Positions 12,654 through 58,434 of a stretch of 64,000 bases of DNA are shown piece after piece. Numbering within the stretch: position 1 is the stretch's first letter; each line of letters begins with the position of its first letter. The notes beneath the pieces were generated by a model, which was not told where the DNA came from, did no database searches, and was given only the letters and a program-made list of their open reading frames with translations. A program made the position numbers and the translations under genes. Origin of the DNA: an uncultured Mediterranea sp. (GTDB lineage Bacteria; Bacteroidota; Bacteroidia; Bacteroidales; Bacteroidaceae); assembly GCA_945831575.1 (NCBI GenBank), contig CAMACX010000002.1, forward strand, positions 85,459 to 149,458, in the 5' to 3' direction.

Positions 12654-12763
12654 CAGCCGCGAACATTTAACTCTCCAGCTGCGAACATTTAACTCCCCAG
12701 CTGCGAACATTTAACTCCCCAGCCGCGAACATTTAACTCTTCGGCTGCGAACATTTAATTGAA
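12654..12763. repeat. 5 tandem copies of a 22-bp repeat CAGCYGCGAACATTTAACTCYC
   Basis: Units start at 12654, 12676, 12698, 12720, 12742; units 2 and 3 identical. Confidence 0.95.
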
Positions 12764-44003: not shown

Positions 44004-44039
44004 ATAATCACTAATCATTTATCATTAATCACTAAGCAC
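44004..44039. repeat. heptad-type repeat, inverse orientation (ATCACTAATCA)
   Basis: ataatcactaatcatttatcattaatcactaagc. Confidence 0.6.
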
Positions 44040-44607
44040 TTCCGTGCGTCTTGCCTGGATTCTTGGCAATAAAGTCTTTCCAGCTCTTGTAGGCTTTATC
44101 TACAGCTGGCCGGCCCATCTGCAGGTAGTGGCAGTAGGCTGCTGCCAGGGCATCGGTAGCATCCATAAACTTAGGCATCTCCTCGGCGCTGAGGTGGAGC
44201 ATGCGTTGCAGCATACCGGCCACCTGCTCTTTGGAGGCCTGTCCGTTGCCGGTGATGGCCATTTTGATCTTCAGTGGGGCGTACTCTGTAATGGGGATGT
44301 CGCGGATGAGTGCCGCTGCCATGGCCACTCCCTGTGCACGTCCCAACTTGAGCATCGACTGTACGTTCTTGCCGAAGAAGGGGGCTTCGATGGCCAGTTC
44401 ATCGGGCAGGTAGCTGTCTATGATGCCCAGCACGCGGTTGTGGATGTGCTTCAGCTTGAGGTAGGTGTCAGTGGTCTTGCGCAGGTCGATGACTCCCATA
44501 GCAATCATCTCCGCCTTGGTCCCCGCGACGCGTATCAGTCCATAGCCCATCACGTTGGTGCCTGGGTCGATGCCCATGATAATCTTCTCCTTAACCGGTT
44601 GCATCAC
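44032..44607 (-). CDS. ruvC: crossover junction endodeoxyribonuclease RuvC
   Basis: [43 protein letters not shown]. Confidence 0.93.
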
Positions 44608-53881: not shown

Positions 53882-54464
53882 TCCAGGGTCTTTGTATTTC
53901 CCTGCAAATGTAGAAATATTAATTCATAACGTGCTAGGAAACTTTAGTTTTTATATTTGTTTAGCAATAATACTATGCGCATAGCATAGTTAAAACAGTA
54001 CAGCGTTTTTCGTCCTTTTTGCATTATTTTCAACTTATCACCTGAAATGTCGGATGAACGACTTTTTAATTATTAGGGGTGGTATACTTTTAAGTTAGAA
54101 TATACAACAAGTCCAATCGCCGGGTGTCCATGGGTGACCTGCTTCCATACGACCCTCTACAGATTTATTTTTGTGTCATTATGTTGCCATGTTGCAACAC
54201 TCTTTGATATACAATACGTTATGGGTGGCAACAAGGGTGGCAACAACTTGATCTTTGATGCAATTTAGGCAAAATACGGACTATTTTGCCACTTTTTGAT
54301 GCTTTTTTCCTGTAAAAATAGGGGTGTATTGTGTACGTTTTTGCGGTATAAGGGTATTTCACCCTATTTTTCATACATGTTTTGGGGTACTTTTGACGGG
54401 TATATACCCCTTTTATGAATGTAAGTGAACTGCCGAGATGCTGTCCCTCAGGCAGAAGCAATAG

Positions 54465-54617: not shown

Positions 54618-54671
54618 GTTAGCTTCACCTGTTTAGTTAGCTTCATCTGTTCAGTTAGCTTCACCAACTGG
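54618..54671. repeat. 3 x 18-bp tandem repeat GTTAGCTTCACCTGTTTA
   Basis: Units at 54618, 54636, 54654. Confidence 0.9.
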
Positions 54672-54732
54672 AAGATTAATAATCTTAAAGCTACAAGGTT
54701 ATTAATCTTCAGCCGATAGGATTATTAATCTT
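54672..54732. repeat. 3 x 23-bp-period repeat with core TTATTAATCTT / palindrome AAGATTAATAATCTT
   Basis: Core ends at 54686, 54709, 54732 (exact 23-bp spacing). Confidence 0.85.
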
Positions 54733-54802
54733 AATCCCAAATGAGTAACTATGGCATTGGCTCCAACAATGAAGACCTCCGAGTGTGATTAGTTTGTTAT
54801 TC

Positions 54803-54868
54803 ACGGCTGAACAGTTAACTCTCCACAGCTGAGAAGTTAACTGCCCAGGGCTGGGGAGTTAACCTCTC
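54803..54868. repeat. 3 x 22-bp tandem repeat AcrGCTGrrrAGTTAACTstCC
   Basis: Units at 54803, 54825, 54847, same register as 35809-35874; related to 12654-12763. Confidence 0.85.
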
Positions 54869-54924
54869 AGAAGAACAGAACAATCTCATCGGGTGAATAT
54901 CTTTTTTAGTCGCGACATATCATC

Positions 54925-55008
54925 TGTGCAAAGCTTTTGTACAAATGTACAAAGCCTTTGAACAGTTGTTCGAAAGCTTTGGATAAGTGTACAAAGGCTG
55001 TGTACGAA
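54925..55008. repeat. 4 x 21-bp tandem repeat TGTacAAAGCyTTtGtACAar
   Basis: Units at 54925, 54946, 54967, 54988, exact 21-bp period. Confidence 0.85.
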
Positions 55009-55048
55009 CACTACCTCCCCAGGAAAATATTGTCGGCTCAACGTAAAA

Positions 55049-55197
55049 AATCCTTCACCCTTCACTTTAGTGACCTAACGTGTTGTACCATAATTAATTA
55101 AGTGGTGAAGGATGGCATTTTAATCCTTCACCCATCCTTCACCTTGTAATGTACTGTAATTCAGTGTGATAAAAGGGAAAGTGAAGGGTGAAGGATT
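55049..55197. repeat. perfect 20-bp inverted repeat AATCCTTCACCCTTCACTTT with internal copies of ATCCTTCACC
   Basis: Left arm 55049-55068, right arm 55178-55197; further copies at 55104 (-), 55123 (+), 55134 (+). Confidence 0.9.
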
Positions 55198-55222
55198 ATT
55201 TTCATTTTCTCTCAAAATTTCT

Positions 55223-56089
55223 CTACTTCTTGAGGAAGGCGAGTGACTGCTCAGCGTGGTACGAGGAGCGGACCAGGGGAGCGCTCTCTACCTGCTTGAA
55301 GCCTTTCTGCAAACCCAGCTCCTTGTAGCGCTTGAACTGCTCGGGGGTGACGTACTCGGCTACGTTGTAGTGGCGGTGCGAGGGCTGCAGGTACTGGCCG
55401 ATGGTGAGAATCTGGCAACCGATGGCACGGAGGTCGTCCATCAGTTCCTCCACCTCTTCGGGGGTCTCGCCCAGGCCCACCATGATGCCTGTCTTGCAGG
55501 TGATGCCACTCTGTGCAATCTGCTCAAGCACGCTGAGGCTGGTGTCGTAGCGGGCCACGCTCCGCACCTCGGGGGTGAGGCGGCGGATGGTCTCCATGTT
55601 GTGGGCAATGATGTGGGGCTGAGCGTCAATGACCTGCTGTACCAGTTCGCGGTGGCCCTGGAAGTCGGGTATCAGCACCTCTACGGTGGTGTCGGGGTTG
55701 GTCTGCTTGACCTCGCGGATGGTCTTCGCCCAATGGGCAGTGCCCAGGTCGGGCAGGTCGTCACGGTCCACACTGGTGATGACGGCGTGGCTCAGCTTCA
55801 TGAGCTGTACGCTGTGGGCCACGTGCTGCGGCTCGGCAGGGTCGAGGGGTAGGGGGCGGCCCGTCTGCGTGTTGCAGAAGCGGCAGCAGCGGGTGCAGAT
55901 GTTACCGCCAATCATGAAGGTGGCCGTGCCGCGTCCCCAGCATTCGCCCATGTTGGGGCAGCGCCCACTGCTGCAGATGGTGTGCAGGCAGTGGGACTCC
56001 ACGATGCGTTTCGTCTCGGTGTAGCGCTCATTGGCGCCGATGCTTATCTTCAGCCACTCGGGCTTGCGTACTCTTTGCTTGGGTTCCAT
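55223..56089 (-). CDS. lipA: lipoyl synthase
   Basis: CPNMGECWGRGTATFMIGGNICTRCCRFCNTQTGRP radical SAM and auxiliary cluster motifs. Confidence 0.96.
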   Translation of the reverse strand: MEPKQRVRKPEWLKISIGANERYTETKRIVESHCLHTICSSGRCPNMGECWGRGTATFMIGGNICTRCCRFCNTQTGRPLPLDPAEPQHVAHSVQLMKLSHAVITSVDRDDLPDLGTAHWAKTIREVKQTNPDTTVEVLIPDFQGHRELVQQVIDAQPHIIAHNMETIRRLTPEVRSVARYDTSLSVLEQIAQSGITCKTGIMVGLGETPEEVEELMDDLRAIGCQILTIGQYLQPSHRHYNVAEYVTPEQFKRYKELGLQKGFKQVESAPLVRSSYHAEQSLAFLKK

Positions 56090-58320: not shown

Positions 58321-58434
58321 TAATTAGTGATTAATGATTAATGATTAGTGATTAATGATTAATGATTAATGATTAGGGATTAGTGATTAGGGTGATTTGG
58401 CTTGTTTAATCACTAAACACTAATCACTAATCAC
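58321..58434. repeat. heptad repeats (TTAATGA/TTAGTGA)n followed by inverse copies (TCACTAA)n
   Basis: attagtgattaatgattaatgattagtgattaatgattaatgattaatgattag ... aatcactaaacactaatcactaatcacc. Confidence 0.9.

Follow-up and report, generated by a model that had tools for sequence, protein, structure and literature searches.

The repeat island beside lipA in the window (the whole 64,000-nucleotide stretch analysed here, from an uncultured Mediterranea sp. genome referred to as G000) combines several dispersed repeat families in a mosaic, and its modules have many further copies scattered through the genome. The modules are present in multiple copies, conserve their period and architecture, are co-located, and turn over in sequence at fixed sites. 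We consider it about 60% probable that the island is an extragenic dispersed mosaic of non-coding repeats in which two classes meet, with a part in DNA-level docking and dispersal that we infer. The first class would comprise 21–23-bp tandem arrays in genome-specific families, often with a dyad in each unit, which may locally sample a Bacteroidales-wide population of intergenic minisatellites that favours a 22-bp period. The second would be a palindromic element of ~150 bp in which a 7-bp word is repeated both directly and in inverted form, and which spreads or undergoes conversion between loci, with the word copies of one element changing together. Arrays and elements would act as DNA, forming rows of docking sites two helical turns apart near gene ends for a dimeric, nucleoid-type protein, and could owe their dispersal to recombination or to non-autonomous transposition, mechanisms already proposed for repeats of the BIME and MITE types. 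The first-pass annotation of this region, made from the letters alone, was partly supported.

Composition of the repeat island and its array families

Array detection using Tandem Repeats Finder and an ungapped repeat search confirmed four stacked arrays followed by an exact 20-bp inverted repeat at 54618–55197 (Table 1). All four periods reported in the first-pass annotation (18, 23, 22 and 21 bp) were recovered at the same positions by autocorrelation, and the shuffled-sequence control that it had proposed gave 0 arrays of this kind in 1000 dinucleotide-preserving shuffles of the island. Copy numbers were ~3 for the 22-bp array, ~4 for the 21-bp array and 2.7 each for the 18-bp and 23-bp arrays; for the 18-bp array, the extent found by Tandem Repeats Finder and the ungapped search was 54618–54665, the third unit consisting of the first 12 bases only. 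The inverted repeat described as closing the island is indeed perfect, with 109 bp between its copies, but belongs to a longer element, of which it forms the outer arms and which has inner arms as well. The T-rich tail of this element has the consensus TATTTTTATTTCTCYGCGTTTTTTT in other copies and is diverged in the window copy.

Table 1. Repeat features of the window and the gene adjoining the island.
Feature	Position	Strand	Description
22-bp array, GTTAAC family (second in window)	12654–12758	.	4.8 copies
18-bp array	54618–54671	.	Unit GTTAGCTTCACCTGTTYA, 2.7 copies
23-bp array	54672–54734	.	2.7 copies; unit with 15-bp dyad AAGATTATTAATCTT
22-bp array, GTTAAC family	about 54802/54803–54868	.	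~3 units; ~25 loci genome-wide
21-bp array	54925–55008	.	Unit TGTNCAAAGCNTTTGNACANN, dyad in each; ~4 units
Palindromic word element	55049–55197	+	Outer arms ATCCTTCACCCTTCAC, two copies of the 7-bp word
Inverted repeat, first copy	55049–55068		AATCCTTCACCCTTCACTTT
Inverted repeat, second copy	55178–55197		Exact reverse complement of AATCCTTCACCCTTCACTTT
Inner arms of palindromic element	55097–55115 / 55132–55150
T-rich tail of palindromic element	55198–55222	+	Abuts lipA stop codon
lipA (lipoyl synthase)	55223–56089	-	3′ end abuts element; homologues 70–93% identical

The region is non-coding: short ORFs across the island matched no Pfam family, and an Rfam search of the window returned two tRNAs only, with no match for the island. 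Nor did the island match anything in plasmid, phage and viral collections, and such an origin was ruled out on that basis. In the decayed island upstream, a short ORF on the minus strand (54219–54461) likewise had no Pfam match, and two exact 12-bp repeats, GGGTGGCAACAA, lie at 54223–54246.

By its LipA sequence, G000 falls closest to uncultured Mediterranea/Bacteroides genomes. BLAST of the island against its own genome gave many partial matches, with no further copies of the 18-bp array. The family of the 23-bp array was also present in genomes G154 (stretch L379:3601–3659) and G011 (L004), and the 21-bp family recurs at C47, C32, C35, C14, C5, C27 and C12 of G000. The GTTAAC 22-bp pattern had 47 forward matches versus 0 with a reversed-pattern control. 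Its 27 array calls, which include a few duplicates of one locus or weak chains, hold 118 units at ~25 loci of G000; the second array in the window lies between a gene ending at ~12559 and an aspartate aminotransferase-like gene. This recurrence corrects the initial description of the units as unrelated. A replication element, one of the functions initially suggested, is unlikely, because parts of the island are found again in dozens of intergenic regions. Next to the GTTAAC family, the 21-bp family is seen repeatedly with a homologous spacer (80% identity over 214 bp between C32 and C12); an 84-bp flank that is contiguous with the array at C12 is set apart from it at C32 by an ATPase gene. A stack resembling the window island occurs at C5, where a 33-bp array (AAAGTCGCCCGAAAAAATGTTGAA...; L013:5181–5269) adjoins 22-bp and 21-bp arrays and two palindromic elements.

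The palindromic word element and turnover at fixed sites

With at most one mismatch, the element's outer arm occurs in G000 only as seven pairs, each spanning 145–148 bp, at C1, C2 (the window), C5, C14, C27, C32 and C47. The arms of these seven copies are nearly invariant and the interior is diverged. In each copy, two hairpins lie nested or in tandem, with an arm of ~2.3 copies of the 7-bp word, and the T-rich tail, conserved after most of them, reaches the stop codon of the converging gene in five of the seven. When later-found copies are included, the architecture is present 15 times in G000, seven times with the window's word. A covariance model of the seven copies detected the family in 14 of 160 genus genomes (additional copies in G000 and relatives in 13 others) under stricter filters, with weak matches lost because more than 40 genomes were searched. 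Words found across element copies were CCTTCAC, CCTACAC, ACTTCAC, ACTTCAT, ACCTCAC and TCTTCAC; though the words differ, their order and orientation, the loop motifs and the tail are constant, and within one element all word copies agree. One- or three-hairpin forms occur in some genomes, and the C47 element is 85% identical to that at C5 over 177 bp. Nested CCATCAC / CCCTCAC word hairpins in genome G026 (L006:1500–1840) are apparently a more distant member of the family outside close relatives.

We compared orthologous sites between genomes. Downstream of a VapE-like gene (C47), otherwise matching elements carry the CCTTCAC word in G000 and ACTTCAT in G154, so an element can keep its place while nearly all word copies change, and ectopic conversion by copies elsewhere suffices to explain this. 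The site near aspC is occupied by a GTTAAC array in G000, by three diverged units of that family in G154, and by a 23-bp array of unrelated sequence in G153. The lipA 3′ region, a comparison recommended in the first-pass annotation, does hold an array in G154 (23 bp), but its units are unrelated. The dnaX-ferredoxin and C27 sites have 22-bp arrays with other units in G154, and at bioC-bioD an array was found only in G000. At C14 (dnaX; L012:6272–6418), a small secreted-protein gene ends at residue 48 beside the element tail (48 codons in G000 versus ~170 codons in G153), which suggests an insertion or rearrangement there.

The two classes of repeat were frequently co-located: 24 of 30 palindromic elements (80%) had a 20–24-bp array within 400 bp, compared with 11–25% of control intergenic gaps of at least 200–400 bp in the larger samples (the window's own long gaps, two of four with an array, are too few to count as a control). 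The 21-bp array is reversed with respect to the palindromic element at C47, C14, C5 and C27, though not in the window or at C32. Because both relative orientations occur, the modules do not move as one unit, and a single mobile unit was ruled out.

Relation to known extragenic repeats

The nearest relative in kind is the BrickBuilt MITE of Porphyromonas gingivalis, in which imperfect 23-nt tandem units lie inside a MITE with many intergenic copies, predicted stem-loops, leader and tail flanks with inverted ends, and no Rfam match (PMC4596501). The likeness covers the imperfect units, the copy number, the predicted stem-loops, the inverted ends of the flanks and the lack of an Rfam match, as well as membership of the same order and spacerless 21–23-bp tandem arrays that are intergenic and multi-locus. 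However, BrickBuilt has one unit family in one element, whereas the island has several unit families (18–23 bp) beside a separate palindromic element, and its modules are also found apart from one another and in either relative orientation. The IS5-like terminal inverted repeat of BrickBuilt, GAGACCTTTGCA, had 0 matches (at most two mismatches) in the island and three elsewhere in the window, which is below chance expectation.

A similar mosaic character is found in the BIME/REP sequences of enterobacteria, which are extragenic palindromic mosaics of short modules near gene ends with many copies per genome, but the units in G000 are 21–23-bp arrays and a 7-bp-word palindrome rather than REP hairpins. 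A PF01797 search detected no Y1_Tnp (RAYT) transposase in G000 (94.5% complete), ruling out a RAYT-driven REP element there, and detected one in four of the nine genomes searched. Iterons of 22 bp at plasmid origins are also protein-bound direct repeats of about two helical turns; unlike these, the G000 arrays lie at dozens of chromosomal intergenic loci with different units and have no plasmid match, and no replication initiator gene was noticed next to the array loci read. A CRISPR array was ruled out, as the units are contiguous without unique spacers. We therefore file the island among extragenic mosaic repeats, with only the 22-bp period lacking a known match: a search of the open-access literature found no description of it in Bacteroidales, BrickBuilt being the nearest (PMC4596501).

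In size, terminal inverted repeats and intergenic dispersal, the palindromic element resembles MITEs and the RU small mobile repeats of enterobacteria, which are 127–168 bp long (PMC2759123, PMC2229807), and it shares with MITEs a length within 100–600 bp and multiple dispersed copies. Unlike them, it varies in word composition from copy to copy under a constant architecture, and its arms are made of repeated 7-bp words. That it is a non-autonomous transposon, moved by an IS-type transposase and carrying or attracting arrays as BrickBuilt does, is possible but doubtful. Such an origin would fit the 15 copies with terminal inverted repeats and a conserved tail, the constant distance between outer arms for the main word, and the C14 gene, full length in G153, that stops right at the element. 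Against it, no target-site duplication was recognised in the flanks of the copies read (these are AT-rich, without consistent duplication), and the C47 element occupies the same site in two species, so it has not recently moved there. Moreover, since exact arms occur only at the seven elements, no autonomous partner or parent IS with such ends was seen in G000, nor was one found in viral contigs, and Y1, the only IS transposase family searched, is absent from G000. Under our preferred reading, a dispersed mosaic of two repeat classes, the palindromic element probably moves by recombination or MITE-like copying.

The 22–23-bp period and candidate roles of the repeats

We assessed array periods in 80 lipA-centred loci from GTDB species genomes, taken because the repeats must not drive the choice of loci, together with the window and 20-kb stretches of other genomes. 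Across ~1.53 Mb of Bacteroidales sequence, 49 non-coding arrays with periods of 10–60 bp were detected, 35 of them at 22–23 bp (26 of 22 bp and 9 of 23 bp). Other Bacteroidota (~491 kb) had three non-coding arrays, one of 22 bp, E. coli (50 kb) had none, and shuffled sequence of the first census set gave two arrays in total. Periods of 24–60 bp were nearly absent, in a scan that disfavours periods below 15 bp but not above 23 bp. With coding arrays left in, nine of 19 strict arrays in G154 were of 22–23 bp. Unit sequences mostly differ from one array to another, and the early observation that the period is kept while units diverge was borne out. The palindromic cores noted at the same time correspond to an enrichment of dyads in the census units (13 of 35 at p<0.05; combined p ~9e-10).

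A conserved length of 22–23 bases with shifting unit sequence hints at an internal ruler, that of an unknown protein or copying process. Should the 22-bp period hold genome-wide, Bacteroidales, which are among the commonest gut bacteria, would have widespread intergenic DNA that fixes spacing rather than sequence. Either a nucleoid or recombination protein not yet recognised or a new mutational ruler would then be indicated, and repeat islands that disrupt assemblies and misguide the annotation of small ORFs would have an explanation.

Of the functions initially put forward, a phased protein-binding array survives as our first choice, held tentatively and at well below even odds; it is preferred because dyads in a row, at intervals of two helical turns, are what binding by a dimeric protein would call for. 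However, a single sequence-specific protein would not account for units that vary in sequence between loci and between species, and significant dyads occur in only some arrays. A sequence-independent 22-bp array system, in which selection, or an array-generating or array-binding machine, maintains the period and often the dyad while the units and the 7-bp word turn over in concert by lineage, is conceivable, though doubtful.

The main rival to docking is that the arrays may be neutral minisatellites born of replication slippage beside a dead MITE, the period being a mutational ruler (a ~22-base polymerase or nuclease footprint) and the palindromes perfected by template switching. We regard this as unlikely. 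It is compatible with a period independent of sequence, with aspC arrays that are homogenised within a locus and divergent between species, with arrays gained or absent at bioC-bioD, and with the agreement of all word copies within an element. Slippage, however, gives broad period spectra, yet periods of 24–60 bp are nearly absent though the scan allows them; a consensus can still be recognised in the GTTAAC family at ~25 loci (with a search pattern that favours the GTTAAC core); and the partnership of elements and arrays is non-random.

A transcribed structured RNA (a small RNA or 3′ UTR element), also raised in the first-pass annotation, is very improbable, although the palindromic element is predicted to fold much better than its shuffled versions, whichever strand is taken (z ~-7), and has a T-rich tail beside gene ends; strong predicted folds carry no RNA signal because any palindrome folds on both strands. 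RNA-type covariation is absent. In both dyads of the GTTAAC arrays, paired columns were no more complementary than shuffled columns, and the palindromic element had double changes in three of 34 pairs, with an unfavourable covariation term within the main word type. Outer-arm mismatches comprised 17 G-T and 18 A-C, with no G-T excess on either strand, so that selection as RNA is apparent on neither strand. The island has no Rfam match, and no terminator- or sigma-70-like site was found (a weak test for this phylum); a strand-specific terminator was accordingly dropped.

Several arrays adjoin AAA-ATPase (PF01637, PF09820, PF13173/DUF4143), HU-HIG or AbiEii genes, with AAA-ATPase or AbiEii genes near 22-bp arrays at L010:3326–4456, L011:3567–4955, L064:1–1443, L069:2142–3201, L071:1614–3182 and L078:216–1091. 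These neighbours prompted the idea of a gene cassette or integron-like arrangement; most array loci are without such genes. Heptamer microsatellites of the ATTAGTGA/TAATCAC type were also observed in the window (44005–44040, 58323–58389 and 58407–58434) and at L013:10660–10716 and L066:1759–1820, and are recurrent in G000 and other Bacteroidales loci. The arms of the palindromic element are likewise composed of 7-bp words.
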